Below, piece after piece: positions 22,435 to 63,784 of a DNA stretch of 64,000 bases; positions within the stretch are counted from its first letter, which is position 1, and each line of letters opens with the position of its first letter. The notes beneath the pieces are model-generated. The model saw only the letters and a program-made list of their open reading frames with translations. It was not told the DNA's origin and made no database searches. Origin of the DNA: Kineosporiaceae bacterium (GTDB lineage: Bacteria > Actinomycetota > Actinomycetes > Actinomycetales > Kineosporiaceae). The stretch lies in assembly GCA_016794595.1 (NCBI GenBank), contig JAEUJN010000008.1, positions 62,001 through 126,000 on the forward strand, in the 5' to 3' direction. Made by a program: the position numbers and the translations under genes.

Positions 22435-22492
22435 CCCACCCTCGTGATCATGCACTTTCGACTAGTCGAAAGTGCATGATCACGAGGGTGGG
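22435..22492. repeat. 58-base perfect palindrome (dispersed family, copy 1)
   Basis: The whole element is a perfect inverted repeat of two 29-base arms centred on ACTAGT, with the family core GTGATCATGCACTTTCGA. It fills the gap between the convergent priA and nrtR genes, 18 bases after one stop and 5 before the other. It may be a bidirectional terminator or a mobile palindrome; see copies 2-4. Confidence 0.9.
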
Positions 22493-22497
22493 TGGGG

Positions 22498-23211
22498 TCA
22501 GCGGGCGGGGGGGTGCAGCACCGCGAAGGCGTCGGTGACCTGGAGGGTGGGGCTGCGGAAGCGGAAGACGGACGCCGGGCGCCCGCCGGCCGGACCACTG
22601 CCGATGCGCTCCCCGGTGGCCTCGATCTGCTGGCGGCGGACCAGGATGCGCTGAAGGTTCGTGGCGTCCACCTCGTGCCCCAGGGCCGCCCGGTAGTAGG
22701 TGGCCAGTTCGGACATGGTGAACCGGGCCGGGGCCAGGGCGAAGCCGAGGTTGGTGTAGGAGAGCTTGGAGCGCAACCGGCGCCGGGCTGCCTCGACGAT
22801 GGCGGCGTGGTCGAAGGCCATCCGGGGAAGGTCATCGGCGGGCTGCCAGCGGGTGTCGTCCGGCACGGCCGGCTCGACGTCACCGGGGACCAGGCCCAGG
22901 TAGGTGGTGGCCAGGGTTCGCCCGGTGGGCATCCGGTGCGGGGCTCCGAGGGTCTCGAGCTGCTCCAGATGACTGAGATCGCGGACGTCGACCTTCTCGG
23001 CCAGCTGGCGGCTGATCGAGGCCTCCAGGTCCTCGCGGGCGCCCAGCCGCCCCCCCGGCAGGGCCCAGCGTCCGGCGTGTGGTGGCCGGGCCCGGCGCCA
23101 CAGCAGCACGTGCACCTGGGCCTGGCGGACCTGGAGCACGGCGGCCAGCACCTCATGGTCGAAACAGGACGCAGGACCGCCGTCGACGGGGACGGAGGTT
23201 GGCCGCGGCAC
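22498..23211 (-). CDS. nrtR: NrtR-type NAD regulator (Nudix domain + winged helix)
   Basis: NrtR proteins repress NAD synthesis and salvage genes and are released by ADP-ribose. The 237-residue protein has a Nudix-like N-terminal domain (about 18-145) and a C-terminal winged-helix segment (about 165-230, [14 protein letters not shown]). The Nudix box is degenerate: G54-x5-E60-x7-RQLAEKVDV, so the REUXEEXGU positions E, E and G are Q69, K73 and D75. Loss of hydrolase residues is the known signature of the regulator branch. Divergence from nadA-nadB-nadC supports the role. The GTG at 23211 has no ribosome site; TAGCAT lies 6 bases upstream, so the mRNA is probably leaderless. Confidence 0.85.
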
Positions 23212-23217
23212 GGGGGG

Positions 23218-23223
23218 ATGCTA
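23218..23223 (-). promoter_or_regulatory. Candidate -10 box of leaderless nrtR
   Basis: On the minus strand TAGCAT is followed by six C and then the nrtR GTG. The spacing equals that seen upstream of hisF and pdtaR. Confidence 0.45.
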
Positions 23224-23236
23224 CCCTTGCCCGGGG

Positions 23237-23257
23237 TTATCGCCTAGTAGGCGAAAA
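23237..23257. promoter_or_regulatory. Palindromic operator candidate for NrtR
   Basis: TCGCCTAGTAGGCGA (23240-23254) is a perfect 7-1-7 palindrome and extends by two further pairs on each side after one mismatch. It lies in the 130-base nrtR-nadA gap where the -35 region of nrtR would be and about 85 bases before nadA, the expected place for an operator serving both directions. Confidence 0.55.
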
Positions 23258-23341
23258 CCATCGAGAGGGACGACCACCCGCCGACGGGTCCGCGGGACAG
23301 AACCGAGCACCACGACCGTCACCCGAGCAAGGAGAACCACG

Positions 23342-24334
23342 ATGGAGCTGGACGGCGCGCTGACCGGCGAGGACTGGGCACGTGAGGTACGGCGGCTGGC
23401 CGCCGAACGCGATGCCGTGATCCTGGCCCACAACTACCAGCTGCCCGAGATCCAGGACGTGGCCGACCACGTCGGGGATTCCCTGGCGCTGTCGCGGATC
23501 GCGGCCACGGCGCCGCAGAGCGAGATCGTCTTCTGCGGCGTCCACTTCATGGCCGAGACCGCCAAGCTGCTCTCACCCGACAAGCGGGTGTTGATCCCGG
23601 ATGCGGGCGCCGGTTGCTCGCTGGCCGACACGATCCACGTCGAGGAGCTGCGCACGTGGAAGGAGGCCAACCCGGGCGCTGTGGTCGTCGCGTATGTGAA
23701 CACCACCGCTGCGGTCAAGGCCGAGACCGACATCTGCTGCACGTCCTCCAATGCCGCTGACGTCGTGCGCTCGATCCCCGAGGACACCCCGATCCTGTTC
23801 CTGCCCGACCGTCACCTGGGTGCCCACGTGCGTCGGGTGACCGGGCGCACGAACATGCGGATCTGGGCCGGGCAGTGCCACGTGCACGAGGGCATCACCG
23901 GCTCGATGCTGGTCGAGGAACTGACCGCGGACGCCGAGGCCGACGTGCTGGTGCACCCCGAGTGCGCCTGTGCCACCCCGGCTCTGGAGCTGGTCGCCAG
24001 CGGAGTGGTCGCGCCGGAACGGGTCCGGATCCTGTCCACCGGCGGGATGGTCGAGGCGGCGTCCGGTGGGCGGCACGGCGCGCCGCGGGTGCTCGTGGCC
24101 ACCGAGACCGGCATGCTGCACCAGCTGCGCAAGCGCGACCCGGGCACCCGGTACCTGCCGGTCAGCGACAAGGCGGTCTGCCACTTCATGAAGATGATCA
24201 CTGCGGCCAAGCTGCTGACCTGCCTGCGCACCGGCAAGGACGAGGTGGACGTCGACCCGGCGATCGCCGCCGCTGCCCGCACGTCGGTCGAGCGCATGAT
24301 CGCGATCGGCCAGCCCTCGCGGGGCGGCGAGTGA
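23342..24334 (+). CDS. nadA: Quinolinate synthase
   Basis: NadA condenses iminoaspartate with dihydroxyacetone phosphate to quinolinate, using a 4Fe-4S cluster. The 330-residue protein has [20 protein letters not shown] near the N-terminus and conserved cysteines at TDICC (Cys132/133), HPECAC (Cys208/210) and LTCLRTGKD (Cys294), fitting the three-cysteine cluster arrangement. The ATG follows AAGGAG by about 8 bases. nadB starts at the stop codon (ATG in TGATG), giving a tight nadA-nadB-nadC operon. Confidence 0.96.
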
Positions 24335-26184
24335 TGGACGGCGCCCCCGGCAGCGCACCGGGCGGCGCGCCGGGCGGTGCACCGGGCAGCGCACCGGGCG
24401 ACCCGCCCGCCGGCCAGCGGGTGATCGAGTCCCTGGCCTGCGAGCCGGTGGCGGTGACCACCGCCACCGACGTGCTGATCGTCGGGTCCGGGATCGCCGG
24501 GCTGGCCCTGGCTCAGGCCCTGAGCGAGCACGGCCTGCGGGTCGACGTGGTGACCAAGGCGCGATTGCGCGAGGGCAGCACCCGCTGGGCGCAGGGCGGC
24601 GTCGCCACCGCCGACGGCCCGGGGGACGACCCGAGTCACCACCTCGAGGACACCCTGATCGCCGGCGCAGGGCTGTGCGACGCCGACGCGGTCAAGGTTC
24701 TGGTCGAGGAGGGGCCGAGCGCCGTGGCCGGGCTGCTGGCCTCGGGAGCCGTCTTCGACCGCACCGCGGACGGCGCGCTGTCCTACACCCTCGAGGGCGG
24801 GCACTCCCGCCCCCGGATCGTGCACGCGGGCGGCGATGCGACCGGGCTCGAGATCCAGCGCACCCTGGAGTCGGCCGTCATGGCCGCGGACGACGTCCAG
24901 GTCTGGGAACGCACCTTCCTGCTGGACCTGCTGCGCGATGCGGACGGCGGCGTCGTGGGCGCCCGGGTGTCCCGCTGGACCGGCACCGGGCACGAGGACG
25001 CCAGCCACGAGATCGGTGAGATCCACGCGCGGGCAACGGTTCTGGCCACGGGCGGGTACGGGCAGGTGTTCGCCAAGACCTCCAACCCCTGGGTGGCCAC
25101 CGGGGACGGGCTGGCTGCCGCCCTGCGCGCCGGGGCGGTGGCGGCCGACCTCGAGTTCGTCCAGTTCCACCCGACCGTGCTGGCCCTGCCCGCGGTCTGC
25201 GACGACGCCGGACGCCACCAGTTGGTCTCGGAGGCGGTGCGCGGCGAGGGCGCCGTGCTGATCGACGGCGACGGGGCGAGGGTCATGGCCGGCAAGCACC
25301 CGCGCGAGGATCTCGCGCCGCGCGACGTCGTCGCGGCGACCATGGCCGCGCGGATGGCCGAGCTGGGCGTGGATCACCTCTACCTGGACGCTCGTCACCT
25401 GGGGGAGGAGAGACTGCTGCGGCGCTTCCCGACCATCGTGGCCGGGTGCCGGGCGGCCGGGGTCGACCCGGTGACCGACCCGATCCCGGTGGCCCCGGCC
25501 GCGCACTACGCCTGCGGCGGGTTGCGCTCGGACATGTCGGGCCGGACGTCGCTGCCCGGGCTGTACGCGGTGGGCGAGGTGGCCTGCACCGGCGTCCACG
25601 GCGCCAACCGGCTGGCGTCCAACTCGCTGCTCGAGGCGATGGTGGTGGCCCGTCGGCTGGCCCGCTTGCTGCTCACGCAGACTCCGCTGCGCCGTCCACC
25701 GGCGCCGGACTCGCGCCGGGCCGGCCTGATCGCCCCCGCCGCGCGGGACAAGCTCACCGAGGCGATGGTCCGCCAGGCCGGGGTGGTGCGCCGTCCCGAC
25801 GACCTGGACGACCTGGCCGAGCACCTCGACTCCCTGGTGCTCGATCCCGCCGATCCCTCGGCGGTGCCGGTCGCCCCCGGCCTGTACGCCTGGGAGGTGA
25901 CCAACCTGCACACCATCGCGACCGCCCTGGTGGCCGCCGCCCGGGCCCGGGAGGAGAGCCGGGGATGCCACCGGCGCAGCGATCTCGACGGCCCGCGGAC
26001 CGCCTGGCGGCGCCGGGTGTGTTCCACCGTGCGCGACGGGCGCGTCGTCCGGCTGGAGGATGAGGTGGTCACCGGGCGCGGCGACGCGCAGTCAACCGAT
26101 CTGACGCCGACTGATGGGCCGTCGACGGATGTGCCGCCGGCCGAGCACCAGCCGCACACCCCGACCCAGGAGGTTCCCCGATGA
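24334..26184 (+). CDS. nadB: L-aspartate oxidase
   Basis: NadB oxidises aspartate to iminoaspartate with FAD and hands it to NadA. The 616-residue protein has an unusual Gly/Ala/Pro/Ser repeat at its start (GAPG/SAPG units, residues 3-22) before the FAD-binding segment DVLIVGSGIAGLALAQ (about 46-61). STRWAQGGVA, HTGG-like RPRIVHAGGDATG, QFHPT, HYACGGLRSD and GANRLASNSLLEAMV are the active-site and FAD motifs of the fumarate reductase/aspartate oxidase family. The tail is rich in T/P/D and probably disordered. If a later start were used, the repeats would not be translated, but no better ribosome site was seen. Confidence 0.95.
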   Translation: MDGAPGSAPGGAPGGAPGSAPGDPPAGQRVIESLACEPVAVTTATDVLIVGSGIAGLALAQALSEHGLRVDVVTKARLREGSTRWAQGGVATADGPGDDPSHHLEDTLIAGAGLCDADAVKVLVEEGPSAVAGLLASGAVFDRTADGALSYTLEGGHSRPRIVHAGGDATGLEIQRTLESAVMAADDVQVWERTFLLDLLRDADGGVVGARVSRWTGTGHEDASHEIGEIHARATVLATGGYGQVFAKTSNPWVATGDGLAAALRAGAVAADLEFVQFHPTVLALPAVCDDAGRHQLVSEAVRGEGAVLIDGDGARVMAGKHPREDLAPRDVVAATMAARMAELGVDHLYLDARHLGEERLLRRFPTIVAGCRAAGVDPVTDPIPVAPAAHYACGGLRSDMSGRTSLPGLYAVGEVACTGVHGANRLASNSLLEAMVVARRLARLLLTQTPLRRPPAPDSRRAGLIAPAARDKLTEAMVRQAGVVRRPDDLDDLAEHLDSLVLDPADPSAVPVAPGLYAWEVTNLHTIATALVAAARAREESRGCHRRSDLDGPRTAWRRRVCSTVRDGRVVRLEDEVVTGRGDAQSTDLTPTDGPSTDVPPAEHQPHTPTQEVPR

Positions 26185-27056
26185 GCACCACCCCGGCCAC
26201 CGGTTCGATCAGCGCCCTGGGGCTGCCCGAGGGAGAGGCGGCCCGGATCGCCGAGGTGGCCCTGACCGAGGACCTGGCCGGCGGCGTGGACATCACCACT
26301 CTGGCCACGATCGCCGAGGACGCCGTGGGTGTGGGTGAGCTGGTTGCCCGGGCGGACGGCGTGGTGTGCGGCCTGGCGGTGGCGCGGGCGGTGTTCGACC
26401 GGGTCGGTGGGCTGGAGTTCGAGACCCGGGTGGCCGACAGCCAGGTGGTGCGCCGCGGTGACGTGATCGCCACGGTGAGCGGGCCGGTGCGCGCGATCCT
26501 GACCGGGGAGCGCAGCGCGCTGAACGTGCTGTGCATGTTGTCCGGGATCGCCACCCTGACCGCGCGCTGGGTGGCCGCGGTCGAGGGCACCGGGGCGGTG
26601 ATCCGGGACACCCGCAAGACCGCCCCGGGGCTGCGGGTGGCGCAGAAGTACGCGGTGCGCTGCGGCGGGGGGCAGAACCACCGGATGGGCTTGAGCGACC
26701 AGGCACTGATCAAGGACAACCACGTGCTGTCGGCCGGGGGAGTGGTGCCCGCCCTCGAGGCGGTGCGCGCGATGGCCCCGGACGTCGTGTGCGAGGTCGA
26801 GTGCACCCTGCCCGAGCAGGTGGAGCAGGCGTGCGCGGCCGGGGCGGTGCTGATCCTGCTGGACAACATGACGCTCGATGCCACCCGAGCCTCGGTTTCC
26901 ATAGCGCGCCGTTATGGCACGCGGACCGAGTCCAGCGGCGGGTTACGGCTGGAGAACGCCCGCGAGGTCGCCGAGACCGGCGTGGACTACCTGGCCGTCG
27001 GTGCCCTGACCCACTCGGCGCCCGTCCTGGACATCGCCCTCGACCTGCGACGCTGA
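26181..27056 (+). CDS. nadC: Nicotinate-nucleotide pyrophosphorylase (quinolinate phosphoribosyltransferase)
   Basis: NadC converts quinolinate and PRPP to nicotinate mononucleotide. The ATG overlaps the nadB stop; 291 residues is typical. Visible motifs are EDLAGGVDITT, RSALNVLCMLSGIAT, RDTRKTAPGLRVAQKYAVRCGGGQNHRMGL split over the active site, IKDNHV and the phosphate-binding ESSGGLRLENA. A family palindrome (copy 2) lies 12 bases after the stop and probably ends the operon. Confidence 0.96.
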   Translation: MSTTPATGSISALGLPEGEAARIAEVALTEDLAGGVDITTLATIAEDAVGVGELVARADGVVCGLAVARAVFDRVGGLEFETRVADSQVVRRGDVIATVSGPVRAILTGERSALNVLCMLSGIATLTARWVAAVEGTGAVIRDTRKTAPGLRVAQKYAVRCGGGQNHRMGLSDQALIKDNHVLSAGGVVPALEAVRAMAPDVVCEVECTLPEQVEQACAAGAVLILLDNMTLDATRASVSIARRYGTRTESSGGLRLENAREVAETGVDYLAVGALTHSAPVLDIALDLRR

Positions 27057-27068
27057 GCCGCTCCCCCT

Positions 27069-27130
27069 CCCCACCTCTCGTGATCATGCATTTTCGACTG
27101 GTCGAAAGTGCATGATCACGAGAGGTGGGG
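27069..27130. repeat. 62-base palindrome (dispersed family, copy 2)
   Basis: The two 31-base arms are complementary except at one position where T27091 faces G27108, which would remain a G-U pair in RNA, and at the central TG. The core is the same as in copy 1, while the outer arms differ (CCCCACCTCT versus CCCACCCT) yet remain complementary. It lies between nadC and def, both on the plus strand. Confidence 0.9.
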
Positions 27131-27230
27131 CCGGCCGGGGCGAGCCTGGTCGGCGGTCCACCCGTGGGCCCACGGGCAGAGACCTAGACTGGGTCCGACA
27201 TCCCGCCACCCCCGTGAGGAAGACCGCCCC

Positions 27231-27776
27231 GTGGCCATCCAGCCCATCCGACTGTTCGGTGACCCGGTGCTGCGCACCCCGGCCGAGCCGGTGGTCGACT
27301 TCGACAAGGAACTGCGGATCCTGGTCAAGGACCTGACCGAGACCATGATGGACGCCCCCGGGGCCGGGCTGGCGGCCCCGCAGATCGGGGTCGGACTGCG
27401 GGTGTTCACGTACTACGTGGACAACACCCTCGGGCACCTGATCAACCCCAACCTCGACCTGTCGTCGGAGGAGCAGGAGGGGGAGGAGGGCTGCCTGTCC
27501 TTCCCTGGCATCGTCTTCGACACCCCCCGGGCGCTGCGCGTGGTGGCCACGGGCGTCGACCAGCACGGTGAGCCGGTGACCATCGAGGGCAGCGAACTGC
27601 TCGCCCGGGCGATCCAGCACGAGACCGACCATCTCGACGGCATCCTGTTCATCGACCGTATGGACCGCGCCCAGCGCAAGCTCGCCCTGAAGGCGATCCG
27701 GGAGGCGGAGTGGATGGGGGAGCCGGCCCCGGTGGTCCGCACCAGCCCGCACTCGACCTTCGGCCGCGCACTCTAG
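27231..27776 (+). CDS. def: Peptide deformylase
   Basis: Def removes the formyl group from new proteins. The GTG at 27231 gives 181 residues; AGGA lies about 10 bases upstream and TAGACT (27184-27189) is a plausible -10 box. All three metal/active-site motifs are present: GAGLAAPQIG (44-53), EGCLS with Cys88, and HETDH (130-134). It precedes fmt, its functional partner, by 18 bases. Confidence 0.96.
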   Translation: MAIQPIRLFGDPVLRTPAEPVVDFDKELRILVKDLTETMMDAPGAGLAAPQIGVGLRVFTYYVDNTLGHLINPNLDLSSEEQEGEEGCLSFPGIVFDTPRALRVVATGVDQHGEPVTIEGSELLARAIQHETDHLDGILFIDRMDRAQRKLALKAIREAEWMGEPAPVVRTSPHSTFGRAL

Positions 27777-27794
27777 CCGCGCCCCGCCGTCCCG

Positions 27795-28745
27795 ATGCGC
27801 CTGATCCTCGCCGGCACCCCGGCGGTTGCGTTGCCCGCACTGGCCTCGATCGCCGCCTCCCGCCACGACCTGGTGGCGGTGCTCACCCGGCCCGACGCCC
27901 CGGCCGGCCGCGGACGGCGGCTGGTCCGCTCCCCGGTGGCAGCCTGGGCCGACGAGCACGACCTGCCTGTGCTGCAGCCGGCCAGACTGTCCGAACCGAC
28001 TGCGCTGCAGGCGATTCGAGACCTCGAGCCGGACTGCGTGCCGGTCGTGGCCTACGGTGCGCTGATCCGCCCGGACGCCCTGGCGATCCCGCCGCACGGC
28101 TGGGTCAACTTGCACTTCTCGGTGCTGCCCGCCTGGCGCGGCGCCGCCCCGGTGCAGCACGCGCTGATCGCCGGGGACGAGATCACCGGAGCGAGCACGT
28201 TCCGGTTGGACGAGGGCCTGGACACCGGCCCGGTCTACGGGGTGCTCACCGAACGCATCCGGCCGCAGGACACTGCGGGCGACCTGCTGGACCGGCTCGC
28301 CCACGCCGGGGCTCGGCTGCTGCTGGACACCCTGGACGGCATCGAGGCCGGCCTGCTCGACCCGCGGCCCCAGCCCGCGGACGGCGTGAGCCTGGCCCCC
28401 AAGCTCACCGCGGACGACGCCCGGATCGACTGGAGAGCCCCGGCTGCCGGCGTCGACCGCCGGATCCGCGGGTGCACCCCCGAACCCGGCGCCTGGACCA
28501 CCTGGCGCGGCGAGCGGCTCGGCCTCGGCCCGGTGAGCCTGGCCGCCGCCGCGGCCCGGAATCCGACCCCGGACGGCGTGCCGTCCCCGGGGGAAGTGCG
28601 CGCCGGCAAGCGTGAGGTGTGGGTGGGTACCGCCACCGGCCCGGTCCGGCTCGGCGAGGTGCGCCCGGCGGGCAAGCGGCCGATGGCCGCCGCCGACTGG
28701 GCCCGCGGGGTGCGCCCGCAACCAGGGGAGGTGCTCGGTGACTGA
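27795..28745 (+). CDS. fmt: Methionyl-tRNA formyltransferase
   Basis: Fmt formylates initiator Met-tRNA. The 316-residue protein has an N-terminal Rossmann-type catalytic domain with Asn105, His107 in [12 protein letters not shown] and the Asp in [12 protein letters not shown], and a C-terminal OB-type domain from about residue 205. The gene overlaps rsmB by 8 bases. The def-fmt-rsmB order is conserved among actinobacteria. Confidence 0.96.
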
Positions 28746-30345
28746 TCCCTCGGCGCCCCGGCGCCCGGACCGACAGCCCGGCCACCACCCGGATCGGGCC
28801 GGCACCCGCGCGTCGGTCAGGCCGTCCACCCGTCAGGTCGCCCGACGCCGGATCTACGCCCCTCGGGTGATCGCCTGGCGCACCCTGCGCGCGGTGGACG
28901 AGGACGACGCCTACGCCAATCTGGTCCTGCCCCGGCTGCTGCGCGAGTCCGGGCTGAGCGGGCGGGACGCGGCGTTCGCCACCGAACTGGCCTACGGCTC
29001 CCTGCGGGGCCGCGGTACCTACGACGCCATCCTGGCCGCGTGCGCCAACCGCCCGATCGACCCGCCGTTGCTGGACGCGCTGCGCCTCGGCGTCCATCAA
29101 CTGCTGGCCACCCGGGTGGCATCGCACGCCGCGGTGGCCGCCACCGTCGACCTGGTGCGCGCCGAGATCGGCCAGGGCGCAGCGGGTTTCGCGAATGCCG
29201 TGCTGCGCCGGGTGTCCGGACAGGACCTGAATGCCTGGCTCGACCAGTTGGCCCCTGCCCAGGGCACCGCCACGGGAGCCGGCTCGGCCACGGGAGCCGG
29301 CTCGGCCACGGGCAACCAGGACGAGGATGCCCGGCTGGCCCTGCGCCACTCCCACCCGGAGTGGATCGTGCGAGCCCTGCGCGACGCGCTGCGCCACCAC
29401 GGCCGACCCGTCGAGGAGCTCGAGCAGCTGCTGATCGCCGACAACACCCCGGCCGAGGTCACCCTCGCCGTCCTGCCGGGACTCGCCAGGCCGCAGGACC
29501 TGTCGGGCACGCCAGGGGAGCTCAGCCCGTACGCGGTCCGGATCAGCGGTGCCCCCGGGGCGCTGCACGCCGTCCGCCAGGGCCGTGCCCGGGTGCAGGA
29601 CGAGGGCAGCCAGGTGGTCGCCCTCGCACTGGCCGACGCCCCGCTCGACGGGCCCGATCAGGGTGCCTGGCTCGACCTGTGCGCAGGTCCTGGTGGCAAG
29701 ACCGCGCTGCTGGGCGCCGTCCTGGCGCGGCGGCGGGACGAGGGCGAGCTGCCGGCGAGCGCCCGGGTGATCGCCACCGAGGTCGCCCCCCACCGCTCCG
29801 ACCTGGTGCGGACGGCGGTGGCCGGCCTCGAGTCGCGGCGCACGGCGTCCGGCAGGCCCACCATGCCGGAGCCCGTCGTCGAGGTGCACTGCCTCGACGG
29901 CCGCGAGGCTGCTGAGGCCCTCGTGGTGCCCGGGCACGGTTTCGACCGGGTGCTGGTCGACGCCCCGTGCACCGGGCTGGGGGCTCTGCGGCGGCGCCCG
30001 GAGGCACGCTGGCGGCGCACGCCGTCCCACCTGGCGAGCCTGGCCCCGCTGCAGCGGGCCCTGCTGCGGGCCGCGCTGGAGGTCGTCCGGCCCGGGGGCG
30101 TGGTCGCCTACGTGACCTGCTCGCCTCACCCGGCCGAGACCACCCTGGTGGTGGACGACGTCCTGCGCCGGCGCGCCGACCTGCAGCGAGCCGCCCCGGA
30201 CCGCCAGCTGTGGCCCCACCGCGACGGCACTGATGCCATGTACCTGGCGCTGCTGCGCCGCGTACCATCGAGCCCGCCCGAGCAGGCGCCGCCGCCTGCC
30301 CCGCACCCTGATCCGCCCCCCGACCCGAGCCGCAGTCCAGCCTGA
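28738..30345 (+). CDS. rsmB: 16S rRNA m5C967 methyltransferase
   Basis: RsmB methylates a cytosine of 16S rRNA using SAM. The 535-residue protein has a variable basic N-terminus (1-40), a NusB-like RNA-binding domain (about 42-165), and a methyltransferase domain with the SAM motif [11 protein letters not shown] (about 312-322) and the two catalytic cysteines Cys411 (VDAPCTG) and Cys461 ([10 protein letters not shown]). An 18-base repeat (29269-29313, two and a half copies) encodes [14 protein letters not shown] in the linker between the domains. The C-terminus is proline-rich. The GTG overlaps the end of fmt. Confidence 0.94.
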
Positions 30346-30365
30346 CCCCGAGGAGCACCGCGCCC

Positions 30366-31457
30366 ATGAGCGTCGAAGGAACCGGCGGCCCCCAGGACGC
30401 CATCGCCCGGGCGGCGGCGGTCGAGAACGTGCGCCGGCTGTTGCGGGTGCCGCCCCCGTTCGCCGTGATGGGCCTGAGCCATCCGGCGCTGACCCCCTCC
30501 CGGCTGGTCCAGGTCAACGAGGTCGACGGCGTGGTCACCCGGATCTCCCTCGGGTTCGGCGACGCGCTCGGTTCGGCCGGCCGGTTCGCGCTGGTGATCA
30601 GTGGCCAGCCGGGGCGTCCGCTGGACGACCTGGCCGACCTGCTGGCCGCCGAGGCCGTGCGGCTCGGGGAGGAGGTCACCCAGGACCCGCCGACCGCGCC
30701 CGAGCTGACCCCCGCCGGGGGACTGCGGCTGAACATCCCGCTGGAGGTCGACGGTCTGATCGTGGTCGAGGGCCTGCCGGTGCCCGCGCACCTACGTCGC
30801 CAGGGGCGGTTGTGGGCTGCGCACATCACCGCCAGCCCCGGCCGGGTGGTCACCGTGATCGCCCGGGGTGTCGACCCCGGAACCCTGCAGCTCAGCGAGG
30901 TGCGCGAACTGCGGCCCTACGTCAACGCCTGGGAGGAGCACCAGCTCAAGGCGATGGCCGCCGCCGCCTTCATGAGCCACCACCCGGTCGCTCCGGAGGC
31001 CCCGGCGCAGGGCCTGGATGCCCACATCGGGCTGCTGCGGGCGTGGGTGGCCGACCGCAACCGGCCCACCGGCGCGAACGACCCGCTGTGGGAGGCCGCG
31101 GTGCGCACCCAGGTGCACTACGGCAAGCAGACCGAGCCGGACGCCGCGGACGCGGTCAACGCCATGGTCAACCAGGCCCTGCGGCTGGCCGAGCGGGCCC
31201 CGTGGTTCACCGACGGGACGCAGGCAGCGCGGGCGATCGAGGAGCTGGCCCGGTACACGGTGTTCGACTCCGACGTGCCGAGTCGCCGGGCCCAGGAGTG
31301 GTGGGGCAGGGTGTGGGTGTTGAGCACCACGCGTCCCCCGGACGACCCCGACCAGGCGCGCGAGCGGATGCGTGAGCACGCCGCCACCGAGGCCGTGTGG
31401 CTGACCGCGTGGGAACGGTGGGCCACCGGGGACGACGGGCACGGACGCCGCCGCTGA
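30366..31457 (+). CDS. Conserved-looking protein of unknown function
   Basis: A 363-residue soluble protein that I do not recognise. It starts at an ATG with GAGGAGC about 12 bases upstream. There is no signal peptide or membrane helix. The N-terminal half (about 25-185) is rich in beta-type segments (FAVMGLSHPALTP, VTRISLGFGDAL, LNIPLEVDGLIVVEGL); the C-terminal half is helical and Trp-rich (AQEWWGRVWVL, AVWLTAWERWATG). Codon use matches the neighbours, so it is a genuine gene. It sits between rsmB and rpe. Confidence 0.7.
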   Translation: MSVEGTGGPQDAIARAAAVENVRRLLRVPPPFAVMGLSHPALTPSRLVQVNEVDGVVTRISLGFGDALGSAGRFALVISGQPGRPLDDLADLLAAEAVRLGEEVTQDPPTAPELTPAGGLRLNIPLEVDGLIVVEGLPVPAHLRRQGRLWAAHITASPGRVVTVIARGVDPGTLQLSEVRELRPYVNAWEEHQLKAMAAAAFMSHHPVAPEAPAQGLDAHIGLLRAWVADRNRPTGANDPLWEAAVRTQVHYGKQTEPDAADAVNAMVNQALRLAERAPWFTDGTQAARAIEELARYTVFDSDVPSRRAQEWWGRVWVLSTTRPPDDPDQARERMREHAATEAVWLTAWERWATGDDGHGRRR

Positions 31458-31532
31458 CCCAGCCTCGACCTGCTCGACCTCGCCTCGGCCACCGGTCACC
31501 GGCTTCACATCCAGATCAGGAGAGCGACCCGC

Positions 31533-32207
31533 ATGGGTGTGCAGATCTCGCCGTCCCTGCTCTCGGCCGACTTCGCCCGCCTGGCGGACGAACTGTCGGC
31601 CATCGCCCGGGCGGACTGGGCCCACGTGGACGTCATGGACAATCACTTCGTACCCAACCTGACCCTGGGGCGTCCGGTGGTCGAGGCACTGGCGGCGGTC
31701 AGCCCGGTGCCCCTGGACTGCCACCTGATGATTGCCGACCCGGACCGGTGGGCCCCCGGGTACGTGGACGCCGGGGCCCGGAGCGTCACCTTTCACGCCG
31801 AGGCCGCAGCGGCCCCGATCCGGCTCGCGCGGGAGCTACGGGCCCTGGGCGCCCGGGCGGGCCTGGCGGTCAAGCCGTCGACCTCGGTCGAGCCCTACCT
31901 GGAGCTGCTGCCGGAGTTCGACATGATCCTGGTGATGACCGTCGAGCCGGGGTTCGGTGGGCAACCCTTCCTGGAGCACGCCCTGCCCTCGGTGCGCCGC
32001 GTGCGGCAGGCGGTGGCGGCGTCCGGGTTGGACGTCTGGGTGCAGGTCGACGGGGGGGTCAACGAGCAGACCATCGAGCGCTGCGCCGAGGCCGGGGCCG
32101 ACGTGTTCGTGGCCGGCTCGGCCGTCTTCGGCAGCGAGAACGCGGGCAGCGCCATCGACAGCCTGCGGGCGCTGGCCACCCGGGCCTGCGCCACGGTGGC
32201 CGGCTGA
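31533..32207 (+). CDS. rpe: Ribulose-phosphate 3-epimerase
   Basis: Rpe interconverts ribulose 5-phosphate and xylulose 5-phosphate in the pentose phosphate pathway. The 224-residue TIM barrel has [10 protein letters not shown], the catalytic Asp in [30 protein letters not shown] and QVDGGVN, all signatures of the family. AGGAGAG precedes the ATG. A gene-poor stretch begins just after the stop. Confidence 0.97.
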
Positions 32208-32450
32208 GGGTGCACGGATTCGGCGACGGCTTTCCGCGGCGATCGCCTGACCCTGACCAACTCAATCACCGTGCCAAGGGTGAAACTGAACGGCGAATGC
32301 CCTCTTTTCGCCCGAGTGGAAGCACTCGGACCACATACGATGAAAGGCCGCCGGCGTCGGCGATTGAGGATCGCAGCGTGGCGCACGTGTTCATTCATCG
32401 GGCGTGGCATACGAGGGTTGCGGGCGCAAGGCACCACTCGGAGGGGAAGA

Positions 32451-32639
32451 ATGATCATTATCACGTTGGCGATGTGGGCTCTCGTCCGCGGGATCTTCAT
32501 CACCTTTCCGCGCTGGCTCGGGGGTTGGCTGTCAGACGACGGCTTCTTCGCCTGGGCATCCGGGTGGGCGATGATCGTCGGGCTGATGTTCGTCCTGAAT
32601 CTCGTGAGCAGGCTGGCTGGTTTCGTTCCCGCCCCCTGA
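32451..32639 (+). CDS. Small membrane protein, unknown
   Basis: A 62-residue hydrophobic protein with two predicted membrane helices (about 2-20 and 32-56, IIITLAMWALVRGIFITF and WAMIVGLMFVLNLVSRLAG). The ATG at 32451 has a strong GGAGGGGAAGA site ending one base upstream; an in-frame upstream extension to 32271 is basic, unlike a gene and rejected. The DNA here has a lower GC content and less third-position bias than its neighbours, consistent with recently acquired or fast-evolving DNA. A CCGAGTG-GAAG-CACTCGG hairpin (32312-32329) lies upstream. No family is recognised. Confidence 0.5.
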   Translation: MIIITLAMWALVRGIFITFPRWLGGWLSDDGFFAWASGWAMIVGLMFVLNLVSRLAGFVPAP

Positions 32640-32677
32640 ACCTTCTGAACGGATCATGACGCGCCGTGTCGCGAGTC

Positions 32678-32977
32678 ATGAAGGGTAGTGAGAAAGACCC
32701 ATGGAGCTGGTAGGCCGGAATCGTCCTCGGAATCGTCCTCATCACGGCCAAGATGGTGTGGGACGTATCCCGGGCCGGGGGAAACCCACCCGAACTCAAC
32801 AACCTGACCAAGTGGCGTCGGCTGATGTACCGGATCAACAGCTACAACGCCGCGGAAGACGAGAAGGAGGCGGCCAAACGTCGCAACCGGCCCTGCCCAC
32901 TGTGCCACGGCACGGGACGCCGCCCAGGTGCCGGAAACTACATGGAACGCTGCGATCACGGCCCGACGTCCTGGTGA
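32678..32977 (+). pseudogene. Small membrane protein with CxxC motif, interrupted by an amber codon
   Basis: From the ATG at 32678 the frame reads eleven residues ending WSW, then TAG at 32711-32713, then without frame change a hydrophobic segment AGIVLGIVLITAK and a soluble tail to the TGA at 32975. The tail contains CPLCHGTG and a later CDHG, resembling one zinc-finger repeat of the DnaJ type. There is no start codon between the TAG and ATG 32753, so the membrane segment is only translated if the TAG is read through or is absent. The remaining 74-residue ORF (32753-32977) could still be made. It is either a recent pseudogene, a sequence error or a separate short gene. Confidence 0.45.
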
Positions 32978-33322
32978 CATGCGCACCCGCCTGCACGACC
33001 TGACGGTATGGCGGCCATCCCTTCTCCCGACACCCGCATCCGCCCCCTGATAATCGTCGTCGAGGCGGTCTCGGCTCGCAGGCGTCGCGTCTTCTGGATC
33101 TCGGTGAGGGCTGGCACCGCCTGGCATTCGGGGGCTCCCTGCGCCCACACCTGGTGACGACCCACCTCAGTGGAGCCTCGAGCCGCTGCGTCCGATCTGG
33201 GCGGCGATCGAAGGAGTGCCCGCAGAGCCGGTCGCGACTCGAGAGCGCTGACGCGGCCGCCCTGCCGGCCGCTGGTCCCGCCACGGGTCGGTGGCACGCG
33301 GTGCATAATCTGCTGTGTAACA
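32978..33322. other. Gene-poor stretch before the FMN riboswitch
   Basis: No supported gene was found in these 345 bases. ORFs on both strands have Arg-rich, patternless translations without third-position GC bias. CATAAT at 33303-33308 is a possible -10 box for the riboswitch transcript. Confidence 0.4.
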
Positions 33323-33451
33323 CGCGTGCTCCGGGGTCGGTGCAATTCCGAACCGGCGGTGACAGTCCGCGACCCGACCGCAGCCAGCGGCCGGTTGACC
33401 TGGTGAAACTCCGGGACCGACGGTGAGAGTCCGGATGGGAGGCAGCACGCG
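33323..33451 (+). promoter_or_regulatory. FMN riboswitch (RFN element)
   Basis: The terminal stem P1 is formed by CGCGTGCT (33323-33330) and AGCACGCG (33444-33451). Inside are the conserved RFN segments CCGAACCGGCGGTGACAGTC, GACCTGGTGAAACTCCGGGACC split over P5/P6, and GACGGTGAGAGTCCGGATGGGAGG split over the junction, in the correct order. The aptamer ends 118 bases before the ATG of the next gene. This class senses FMN and normally shuts off riboflavin synthesis or uptake genes. Confidence 0.93.
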
Positions 33452-33569
33452 CGGCATCCGTGTGCCGTCGATGGTGATGGGCGTCCTGTGACGCTGTCGC
33501 CGCTGACGCACGCGGGGTCGTTCGGTCCCCCGGAGTTCGTCCCGACAGCACTCACACAGGACGGACACC

Positions 33570-34301
33570 ATGGAATTCCTCACCTGGCTGGCCGAGGCGC
33601 ACATCCAGCTCGGCCAGTACCAACTGCGATGGCTCGAACTGATCGGTGTGCTCATCGGTCTGGCCTCTGCCGTCGGCGGCATGAAGCGCAAGGTCTGGGC
33701 CTGGCCGGTCGGCATCACGGCCAACATCCTGTTGTTCTTCGTCTACATCAACGCGATCTTCTCCCCGCACGAGGGGGAGCGGACGCCCCTGTTCGGCCAG
33801 TCCGGCCGGCAGGTGTTCTTCATCATCGTCAGCCTCTACGGCTGGTGGCGCTGGAACGAGTCCCGTAAGGGCCGGGGCACCGACCGACCGGCGATCGTCC
33901 CGCGGTGGGCCACGATGGCCGAGCGGGCCGCGTTGATCGGGGTCTGGCTGGGCGGCGTGCTCGTCGTCCAGTGGGTCTTCGCCCAGATCGGCGCCGGCTG
34001 GCCTGCACCGCGCTGGTACTACTGGTGCGACGCCTGGATCTTCATGGGCTCGCTGCTGGCGACCTACGCGATGGCCAGGGGCTGGAACGAGTTCTGGCTC
34101 TGCTGGATCGGGGTCGACCTGGTCGGGGTGCCGCTGCTGTTGCACTCGAACTACATCCCGACCGCAGTGCTGTACGCGTTCTACGCCGTCTTCGTGATCT
34201 ACGGGTTCGTGGTCTGGTTGCGGGCCAGCCGCGCCGAGGCTCAGGTGGAGGTGACCGACCCGGTCGCGTCCGGCGCGACCCGGGCGAGCACGGCGACCTG
34301 A
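33570..34301 (+). CDS. ribM: Riboflavin transporter RibM (PnuC superfamily)
   Basis: A 243-residue membrane protein of the PnuC fold, with about seven helices and the motifs WPVGITANILLFFVY, SLYGWWRWN and LYAFYAVFVIYGFVVW. PnuC proteins carry nicotinamide riboside, but the RibM/PnuX branch of actinobacteria carries riboflavin. The FMN riboswitch directly upstream makes riboflavin the likely substrate. The last 20 residues are a soluble tail. In relatives this gene lies within a ribE-ribM-ribBA-ribH operon; here no riboflavin synthesis gene accompanies it. The hisE gene follows after palindrome copy 3. Confidence 0.88.
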   Translation: MEFLTWLAEAHIQLGQYQLRWLELIGVLIGLASAVGGMKRKVWAWPVGITANILLFFVYINAIFSPHEGERTPLFGQSGRQVFFIIVSLYGWWRWNESRKGRGTDRPAIVPRWATMAERAALIGVWLGGVLVVQWVFAQIGAGWPAPRWYYWCDAWIFMGSLLATYAMARGWNEFWLCWIGVDLVGVPLLLHSNYIPTAVLYAFYAVFVIYGFVVWLRASRAEAQVEVTDPVASGATRASTAT

Positions 34302-34310
34302 CCACCCCCC

Positions 34311-34358
34311 CCCCGTGATCATGCACTTTCGAATAGTCGAAAGTGCATGATCACGGGG
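34311..34358. repeat. 48-base palindrome (dispersed family, copy 3)
   Basis: The arms CCCCGTGATCATGCACTTTCGA and complement are perfect; the centre is ATAG, so one pair (A34333/G34336) is mismatched. It lies 9 bases after the ribM stop and before hisE, both on the plus strand. Confidence 0.9.
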
Positions 34359-34391
34359 TACCTCGCTGGGGGGGCTGGGTGGGCTCTCGAC

Positions 34392-34397
34392 TAGGCT
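34392..34397 (+). promoter_or_regulatory. Candidate -10 box of leaderless hisE
   Basis: TAGGCT lies 7 bases before the hisE GTG; no ribosome site is present. The identical hexamer precedes hisF at 6 bases. Confidence 0.5.
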
Positions 34398-34404
34398 CGC
34401 CCGG

Positions 34405-34668
34405 GTGAAGACCTTCGAGCAGCTGTTCGCCGAGCTCGCCGAACGCGCCGTCACCCGGCCGGAGGGGTCCGGGACGGTGCGAGCCCTGGACGCCGGCGTG
34501 CACGCGATCGGCAAGAAGATCGTCGAGGAGGCCGCCGAGGTCTGGATGGCTGCCGAGCACGAGGGTCCCGATCGGGCCGCCGAGGAGATCTCCCAGCTGA
34601 TCTACCACCTGCAGGTGCTGATGGTGGCCACCGGCCTGAGCCTGGAGGACATCTACGCGCACCTGTGA
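34405..34668 (+). CDS. hisE: Phosphoribosyl-ATP pyrophosphatase
   Basis: HisE hydrolyses phosphoribosyl-ATP to phosphoribosyl-AMP, the second step of histidine synthesis. The 87-residue protein is the stand-alone actinobacterial form, with the conserved [18 protein letters not shown] and [14 protein letters not shown] segments carrying the Mg-binding acidic residues. The GTG start is probably leaderless. hisG follows after 100 bases. Confidence 0.96.
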
Positions 34669-34768
34669 GCAGAGGCCGGCACCCGTCGGTCGACGTCCCG
34701 CACCTCCCGAGACCCCAGAACGCCCGAACCCGAGAACACCCGAGATCCACTGGCTGCCGAGGAACGAC

Positions 34769-35614
34769 ATGCTGCGCGTCGCCGTCCCGAACAAGGGCTC
34801 CCTGTCCGCCGATGCGGCCGACATGCTCAAGGAGGCCGGCTACCGCCAGCGGCGTGACCTCAAGGAACTGATGCTGCTCGACCCGGACAACGACGTCGAG
34901 TTCTTCTACCTGCGCCCGCGCGACATCGCCCTCTACGTGGGGGCCGGCACCCTGGACGTCGGGATCACCGGCCGTGACCTGCTGCTCGACTCCGGGGCCG
35001 ATGCCCGCGAGGTGATGCCGCTCGGCTTCGCCGAGTCGACCTTCCGGTTCGCGGCGCGCCCGGGGCAGTTCGGCGGCGTCCAGGACCTCAGCGGACGGCG
35101 GGTGGCCACCAGCTACGCCGGCCTGGTCTCCCAGCACCTGGAGGAGAACGGCGTCGAGGCGACGGTGGTCCGGCTCGACGGCGCGGTCGAGACCGCCGTC
35201 CAGCTCGGGGTGGCCGACGTGATCGCCGACGTGGTCGAGACCGGCGGCACGTTGCGCGCCGCGGGCCTCGAGGTCTTCGGGGAGCCGATCCTGCGCTCGG
35301 AGTCGGTGCTGGTCCGGCGCGGCGGCTCCTCCGATCACCCCGGCCTCGAGGTGCTGGTTCGGCGGCTGACCGGGGTCATGGTGGCCCGGCAGTACGTGCT
35401 GATGGACTACGACGTCCGGGTCGAGCACGTCGAGAAGGCCTGCGCGATCACCCCCGGTCTGGAGTCGCCGACCGTCTCCCCCCTGCACGACCAGGGCTGG
35501 GTTGCGGTGCGGGCCATGGTCCGCCGTGAGGTGACCAACCAGGTGATGGACGACCTGTACGCGATCGGCGCGCGCGCGATCCTGGTCACCAGCATCCACG
35601 CCTGTCGGCTCTGA
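34769..35614 (+). CDS. hisG: ATP phosphoribosyltransferase (long form)
   Basis: HisG starts histidine synthesis by joining ATP and PRPP and is feedback-inhibited by histidine. The 281-residue long form has two catalytic periplasmic-binding-like domains ([36 protein letters not shown] as the PRPP loop) and a C-terminal ACT-like regulatory domain from about residue 210 ([19 protein letters not shown]). No HisZ is needed for this form. A PH-domain gene follows 8 bases later. Confidence 0.96.
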
Positions 35615-35622
35615 GGGGGATC

Positions 35623-36099
35623 ATGGCCACCACACCCACGTCGTCATCGGGGTCCACGTCCGCCGACGACCTGTACCGGCCGTTCCGCTCGCGGCGGGGG
35701 CGGGCGGTGGCCCTGGCCATCGGCATCGCCCAGGCCGTGCTGCTGGTGGCCATCGCCGTCTGGCTGCCGCCGCCGTTCGGCTGGGTGGACAAGCTCGAGA
35801 TCACCCTGGTCTCCGCCGCGGTGGGGCTCGGGCTCTGGCGGCTGGGCAGCGTGCGCGCCCTGCCCACGCCGGCGGGCCTGGTGGTCCGCAACCTGGTGCA
35901 CACCACCCGGCTGGAGTGGGCTCAGATCGTGGCGGTCCGCCTGGGCGGCGGAGGTCCCTGGGTGGTCCTGGACCTGGACGACGGGGACACCCTGGCCGTG
36001 ATGGCCATCCAGCGGGCCGACGGTGAGCTCGGTCAGTCCGAGGCCACCCGGCTGGCGACCCTGGTCGCCCTCAACAGCCGGACCTCGCGCGACGACTGA
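35623..36099 (+). CDS. PH-domain membrane protein
   Basis: A 158-residue protein with a Ser/Thr-rich start, two predicted membrane helices (about 29-49 and 57-75) and a small beta domain (LPTPAGLVVRNLVHTTRLEWAQIVAVRL, GPWVVLDLDDGDTLAVMAIQ) that matches the bacterial PH-like domain found downstream of hisG in many actinobacteria. Function is unknown. It is probably cotranscribed with hisG and ends near palindrome copy 4. Confidence 0.75.
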   Translation: MATTPTSSSGSTSADDLYRPFRSRRGRAVALAIGIAQAVLLVAIAVWLPPPFGWVDKLEITLVSAAVGLGLWRLGSVRALPTPAGLVVRNLVHTTRLEWAQIVAVRLGGGGPWVVLDLDDGDTLAVMAIQRADGELGQSEATRLATLVALNSRTSRDD

Positions 36100-36132
36100 C
36101 CCACCGGCCCCCGTCCGCCCTCCGACCCATCC

Positions 36133-36184
36133 CCCTTGGTGATCATGCACTTTCGAATGGTCGAAAGTGCATGATCACGGGGGG
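36133..36184. repeat. 52-base palindrome (dispersed family, copy 4)
   Basis: The inner arms GTGATCATGCACTTTCGA and complement (36139-36178) are perfect around an ATGG centre. The outer CCC/GGG pairs continue after one mismatch and two wobble-type pairs, so this copy is the most decayed at its edges. It lies between the convergent PH-domain and dsbA-like genes. Confidence 0.85.
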
Positions 36185-63596: not shown

Positions 63597-63615
63597 ACGA
63601 TCCAGAGGTAGTGGT

Positions 63616-63733
63616 GGGGGGGGGGGGGGGGGGGGGGCGCCCCCCCCCCCCCCCCCCCCCCCGCCCCCCCCCCGCGGGGTCGAGCACCCCCCCAGGGTTT
63701 GGGGGGGGGGGGGGGGGGGCAACACCCCCCCCC
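63616..63733. repeat. Extreme poly-G / poly-C tracts
   Basis: Runs of 22 G (63616-63637), 23 C (63640-63662), 10 C (63664-63673), 7 C (63687-63693), 19 G (63701-63719) and 9 C (63725-63733) lie close together and could pair with each other. No coding sequence is plausible here. Such tracts may be a genuine intergenic hairpin region, or sequencing and assembly error around a shorter G/C-rich hairpin. Confidence 0.85.
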
Positions 63734-63784
63734 GCCACCACCTCCGCATGCACCGGCCGCCTGTCGAGGACCGTGCGGCCGAGA

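Follow-up and report, generated by a model that had tools for sequence, protein, structure and literature searches.

Gene-end palindromes in a Kineosporiaceae genome as candidate dyad sites for a DNA-binding protein

What role might be played by long, near-perfect palindromes that recur close to the 3' ends of genes? Four of them lie in a stretch of 64,000 nucleotides from a Kineosporiaceae bacterium (assembly GCA_016794595.1, contig JAEUJN010000008.1, positions 62,001 to 126,000 of the forward strand), here called the window, whose own coordinates are used below. A sequence-only reading of the window by a model had offered three possibilities: a dispersed palindromic element, a protein target site or a structured RNA. 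The palindromes do form a dispersed family, and the conserved core and the spacing of sites in relatives favour the protein target site; structured RNA is not common to the relatives. We therefore lean, by a little, towards the view that the palindromes are dyad sites for a putative sequence-specific DNA-binding protein at gene ends, where it most likely has a boundary role. We infer binding, cooperativity and this role from the sequence of the sites, their copy number, placement, core conservation and spacing, and their lineage-specific dialects.

A palindrome family at gene ends

The four elements, which have no strand of their own, were found where the sequence-only reading had placed them, with the centres and gene contexts that it gave. 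Element 1 (22435..22492), between a convergent pair, has 18-bp arms around the centre CTAG and outer arms matching over 9 bp; its half-sites at 22444..22461 (+) and 22466..22483 (-) are exact arm matches. Element 2 (27069..27130) lies between co-directional genes, with the centre CTGG and outer arms matching over 11 bp; the half-site at 27080..27097 (+) has one mismatch (C to T) and that at 27102..27119 (-) is exact. Element 3 (34311..34358), also between co-directional genes, has the centre ATAG, outer arms of 4 bp and two exact half-sites at 34315..34332 (+) and 34337..34354 (-). Element 4 (36133..36184), between a convergent pair, has the centre ATGG and exact half-sites at 36139..36156 (+) and 36161..36178 (-). 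The outer arms had been described as complementary in every copy. This is so for three of the four, which form contiguous stems; in the copy at 36139 the outer arms pair only around a 3-base bulge.

The 18-base arm has eight matches in the window at up to three mismatches, all within the four elements and seven of them exact; 100 shuffles averaged 0.01. The core is 42-45% GC in a window of 72% GC. The four palindromes would fold as RNA into very stable hairpins (-42 to -58 kcal/mol; z -10 to -13). Across the genome (4.95 Mb in 123 contigs), the arm was matched 73 + 78 times at up to two mismatches and the reversed control pattern not once. These matches make up at least 68 distinct elements, and the common form is GTGATCATGCACTTTCGA-NNNN-TCGAAAGTGCATGATCAC. 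For statistics on arms and centres we used 56 intact copies, having set aside 12 of the 68 that are of another length or have more than two mismatches in an arm. Their centres, read in either orientation, are ATAG in 24, ACAG in 15 and CCAG in seven, and arm changes affect 17 positions on one side only and none on both sides.

Placement was judged against our own gene calls from codon usage. In this genome 39 elements are convergent, 22 co-directional, five divergent and two at a contig edge. None of the 68 copies collected is inside a called gene, as the sequence-only reading had noted for the four in the window, and in this respect they resemble repetitive extragenic palindromic (REP) sequences, which are likewise short, numerous and extragenic. 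A gene 3' end adjoins 62 of the 68, with the stop codon within 50 bp in 58; the called stops in the window are 13-39 bp from the 40-bp core. In 13 of the 68 the called stop (G-TGA) of a neighbouring gene lies in the arm itself. Of 32.3 kb of intergenic sequence in the examined stretches, 4.1 kb falls in convergent gaps, a share that is overstated, if anything, because the stretches were picked around elements. The copies are neither few nor placed at random, either of which had been named as a refutation.

The gene-end bias persists in relatives. In Planotetraspora we counted 14 convergent, 25 co-directional and three divergent elements and four at an edge; gene pairs without an element were convergent in 33 cases, co-directional in 149 and divergent in 41. 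The corresponding counts are three, 10, one and one in Phytoactinopolyspora. Two genomes of one genus, G016 and G034, together have seven convergent, 19 co-directional and two divergent elements, and Quadrisphaera, 'Streptomyces sp. NP160' and the metagenome-assembled genome (MAG) M60 have one convergent, three co-directional, no divergent and one edge element.

Asymmetric centres are oriented 10:10 with respect to transcription over the 20 co-directional copies, and a transcription-oriented function was rejected on this ground.

A shared core with lineage-specific dialects

The exact arm is absent from all 12 same-family genomes. What the relatives have in common is a core of 12 bases, GTGATCATG(C/G/A)AC, in which the base with three choices differs by lineage, followed by a lineage-specific extension that we call a dialect. 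An order-wide survey of 248 genomes with GTGATCATGNAC returned 17 rows with at least 14 matches, the source genome included, and at most 12 in all others. There were 146 matches in the source genome, 15-33 in six g3 genomes of the same family, 90 and 110 in two g10 genomes, 31-117 in six g13 genomes, 14 in G369 and 17 in G027. Given that the reversed control ignores codons, many of the low counts (12 or fewer) are probably coding.

A first scan of named genomes gave no stretches and a looser second scan at least 61. Among the matches listed, paired cores occur in Planotetraspora (six species), Phytoactinopolyspora (two), Quadrisphaera (two), Kineosporia, Bailinhaonella, 'Streptomyces sp. NP160' and MAGs. 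A stretch from a Phycisphaerae MAG (L134) reads as coding by eye and was excluded from the tests. The same element with the same flanks is found in Kineosporia rhizophila (L137) and in G012 (L175); by this match, the bacterial family to which the window belongs is that of Kineosporia. A Planotetraspora-like dialect pattern, blind to other dialects, had one match in each of 10 genomes among 197, and another survey pattern demanded CG after the core and was blind to the dialect of G034. A text search of the open-access literature for core strings, including GTGATCATGCAC, and for 'Kineosporia' with 'palindrom' gave nothing relevant by title among the papers listed.

G016 and G034, two species of one genus, differ in the extension after the core. 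G016 has 76 arm-pattern matches at up to two mismatches, and the 68 listed read GTGATCATGCAC-(G, once C)TTCGC; G034 has G(C/T)CAG after the core in 15 of the 17 arms read. Six gene ends were compared, and two of them, one after rpmB and one next to a presumed argC, are occupied in both genomes, in each by its own dialect. Either these sites have been kept while their sequence changed in concert, or the two species acquired elements independently at some identical junctions. A constant core with species dialects, as seen in G016, G034 and the other lineages, recalls the DNA uptake sequences (DUS) of Neisseriaceae, for which part of PMC3630211 describes species variants around an unchanging core, and inverted pairs linked to terminators.

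Arrays in Planotetraspora

In Planotetraspora the core repeats mostly every 53 bp in mirrored arrays, for example +++++-----. P. thailandica has 464 + 476 exact matches to CGTGATCATGCA and none to the reversed control. The unit is approximately GTGATCATGCA-N4-TTCG-N14-GACCTGC-N13. These arrays may be unreported: no open-access paper that we found contains both 'Planotetraspora' and 'palindrom'.

We compared arrays between loci in 21 alignments with flank identity of at least 66%, in which loci were reused, so that the alignments are not independent; some may pair adjacent arrays that are not orthologous. Differences affect 73 of 1468 positions of the 11-base core (5%) and 1019 of 3191 spacer positions (32%); TTCG differs at 61 of 451, and positions 12-15 at 183 of 508. 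Nine of the 21 have 0-4 gap columns (none in three); among the remaining 12, the totals 51, 54 and 159 correspond to whole units, unlike the others. In the pairs L117/L138 and L105/L119, spacer differences are 13-19% and flank differences 2-6%, so the array spacers evolve more quickly than the mostly coding DNA around them.

The arrays do not have the form of CRISPR arrays, which we rejected as a candidate: they are mirrored (+++---), and the first 100 P. thailandica matches are spread over five contigs (cas genes were not searched).

Spacing of the sites

In the source genome the half-sites face each other head to head, 22 bp apart, or about two helical turns. Relatives have more varied spacings. 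In G016 (the 68 listed matches plus three one-mismatch arms), 19 inverted pairs are spaced by 29-33, 41-42, 53 and 62-63 bp, which corresponds to a period of about 10.7 bp with R = 0.90, a value reached by none of 5000 and none of 1500 uniform nulls. Spacers of one class are unrelated in their interiors (identity 0.36 against 0.38 when shuffled for seven spacers, 0.32 against 0.29 for five), so copying does not explain the spacing classes.

G395, from another genus, was analysed with the 100 listed of its 112 matches and with pairs no more than 131 bp apart; one of the tests also included two outward pairs. Its 14 inverted spacings peak at 10.45 bp (R = 0.70, reached by seven of 1500 nulls), and with six same-strand spacings added R is 0.78, reached by none of 1500. 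The fit to 10.5 bp is far better than that to 11 bp (0.77 against 0.37), which speaks for B-DNA rather than an RNA helix; G016 cannot tell the two apart (0.89 against 0.88). Steps of about 10.5 bp between inverted sites, in one genome each of two genera, suggest proteins bound on one face of B-DNA, with the second case the weaker. Between same-strand units the distance is usually 53 bp in Planotetraspora, and 30-32 bp in M60 and G395.

No pairing in excess of the consensus was found in the flanks and spacers of G016 (z -0.5, -1.0 and -0.4; 15 pairs) or at positions 13-34 of the Planotetraspora unit (z -0.8; 39 elements). A pool of other taxa mixes genera and was left unused in this test.

A possible boundary role

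Each palindrome would be a pair of 18-bp putative protein-binding sites placed head to head, and the family would consist of double-stranded DNA elements of several actinobacterial lineages, built from the core and its extension in pairs or arrays. A core kept between freely changing spacers, together with helical spacing and genome-wide dialects, points to one putative sequence-specific DNA-binding factor per lineage. This protein may bind its sites cooperatively, with its copies on one face of the helix. Because the sites follow stop codons, a role at the ends of transcription units is suggested: the complex would form just after stop codons, in this genome chiefly between convergent genes, and would most likely act as a gene-end boundary, blocking or insulating against transcription that reads through or collides. 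Here the sites appear to have closed up as near-perfect palindromes. GC-rich outer stems accompany many of them and may contribute termination by a hairpin or shield RNA ends.

Several observations weigh against this interpretation. Outer arms in the source genome pair beyond the consensus (mean run 5.23; mean of 5000 shuffles 2.32, largest 3.36), which, with the very stable hairpins, is more than protein binding alone requires, although in 19 of the 56 intact copies the outer arms form no pair or just one. Spacing is nearly fixed in this genome, so that phasing had to be judged from relatives. In G016, R falls to 0.77 (none of 1500 nulls) when three outward-facing (-+) pairs are included, the nine distinct spacings taken once each are matched by eight of 1500 nulls, and the 13 same-strand pairs are looser (R = 0.60). 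The 11 distinct inverted spacings of G395 alone give a weak result, reached by 164 of 1500 nulls. In Planotetraspora the central gap between 12-mers is mostly 18-24 bp, with some of 28-29 and 37-40 bp, and does not form a series of whole turns. Multiples of about 10.5 bp are clear in G016, weaker in G395 when each distinct spacing is taken once, and a misfit for the Planotetraspora central gap.

Other difficulties concern pairing and placement. Planotetraspora has a weak excess of pairing beside the core (z 2.8), within the loop (z 2.6) and across all 53 bp (z 4.5), with a possible contribution from species differences. Convergent enrichment is weak outside the source genome (14 of 42 in Planotetraspora, seven of 28 in G016 and G034), and intragenic copies do occur in other genomes, in one of 29 elements of G016 and G034 and in two of seven of Quadrisphaera, NP160 and M60. 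At four of the six compared junctions, G034 lacks an element directly after the gene; at one of these four, era (named by eye) keeps the same downstream neighbour. At another, the G034 sequence beyond a pgm-like gene is different, with an element some 0.3 kb away.

A broader proposal is that these sites belong to a new boundary system of Actinomycetota, in which phased, dyad-symmetric complexes at dozens to hundreds of sites would act as insulators and not as hairpin terminators, with drifting dialects that the sites follow. We regard this as rather doubtful on present sequence evidence. If it were true, the ends of transcription units would be marked by cooperative protein-DNA complexes with concertedly evolving sites, a bacterial parallel to boundary elements, and the dialects would offer a natural experiment on how a DNA-binding protein and its sites in the genome evolve together.

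A close precedent for the placement is a spaced palindrome of Bradyrhizobium japonicum, nearly all of whose 52 copies are close to the 3' end of a gene, described in part of PMC5217627 along with other spaced motifs that lie partly between convergent genes. Those motif pairs are likewise unexplained. They differ in sequence and organism and have one spacing per motif, and neither dialects nor arrays are mentioned in that part of the paper.

Alternative explanations

The elements could instead be REP-like mobile palindromes, that is, a selfish repeat copied by a transposase, with a preference for gene ends or terminator loops and with subfamilies that invade species separately. Such mobility would account for the patchy distribution among genomes, the near-identity of the 40-bp cores in this genome and their subfamilies of asymmetric centres, congener junctions without an element, outer stems that resemble older terminators, and the arms that provide a neighbour's stop codon. 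REP sequences and bacterial interspersed mosaic elements (BIME), with their REP-associated tyrosine transposase (RAYT, or TnpA-REP), are similar in being many short intergenic palindromes, single or in mosaics. The present elements differ in their near-perfect arms, in the spacing of their relatives at multiples of about 10.5 bp, and in lacking both the tag and the enzyme. Within 12 bp of 136 element ends, GTAG occurs 0 times and CGTC three times.

A RAYT/Y1 transposase had been named as possible support for mobility, and here that expectation failed: a search for PF01797 in 20 genomes found none in the source genome or in 11 other element-rich genomes (at least 14 core matches), and other transposase families were not searched. 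The only match among the 20 is in G005, which has five core matches; as a control, the search matched five of 14 known genomes. None of six actinobacterial names searched for occurs in PMC3733652, a survey of GTAG/CGTC repeats. Helical spacing and a core conserved amid diverged spacers would be unexpected for inert copies, and we consider this explanation unlikely.

Actinobacteria also have intrinsic terminators without a U-tract, which are gene-end hairpins with GC-rich stems. We think it distinctly unlikely that the elements are ordinary terminators, or hairpins that stabilise 3' RNA ends, with an unusually conserved stem. They do form stable stem-loops at gene 3' ends, and the GC-rich outer stems are complementary beyond the consensus. 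However, TTTT, the U-tract expected of other intrinsic terminators, follows within 15 nt of only one of 136 stem ends; a low-GC core common to distant genera is not needed by a stem; and the extended hairpin is not present in all relatives, the extra complementarity being absent from G016 and from the spacers of Planotetraspora.

A recognition watermark left by biased DNA acquisition, with dialects that track a changing receptor, would explain a constant core with species dialects and inverted pairs at gene ends, much as the DUS dialects of PMC3630211 behave, but is very improbable, because none of 68 copies here lies in a called gene whereas DUS are commonly intragenic too according to that part of the paper, because genomes hold tens to about 940 matches against thousands of DUS, and because mirrored 53-bp arrays and helical spacing, found in the relatives, go unmentioned for DUS there.

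Other observations

Two copies in the source genome adjoin open reading frames (ORFs). At L027 (G000:C28:1-2700) a DDE_Tnp_1 transposase ORF stops just before CTAG and an intact right arm, and at L063 (G000:C69:1-4500) an ORF of 395 amino acids, with no Pfam match, stops in the same position. An origin of the family as an insertion sequence or a miniature inverted-repeat transposable element was considered and rejected, since the ORFs at these two copies resemble mobile-element insertions at the palindrome centre. A phage or plasmid origin was also rejected: two patterns found no element pairs in viral contigs, and one window copy had no plasmid match.

A variant left arm, GAGCCCACGCACTTTCGA, occurs at the end of L001, at the start of L065 and at L073:10720, with a further match where C74 ends (L094). 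Next to it in C1 and C71 is the same repeated sequence, at a contig end, which is not the case in L073.

At gathering score, the sole Rfam matches in the window were one FMN riboswitch and one tRNA, with none at the elements. The FMN riboswitch aptamer lies at 33322-33452, about 120 bp ahead of the called gene start at 33570. Near the end of the window, at 63613-63745, long runs of G and C create extensive inverted repeats, which may be difficult to assemble.

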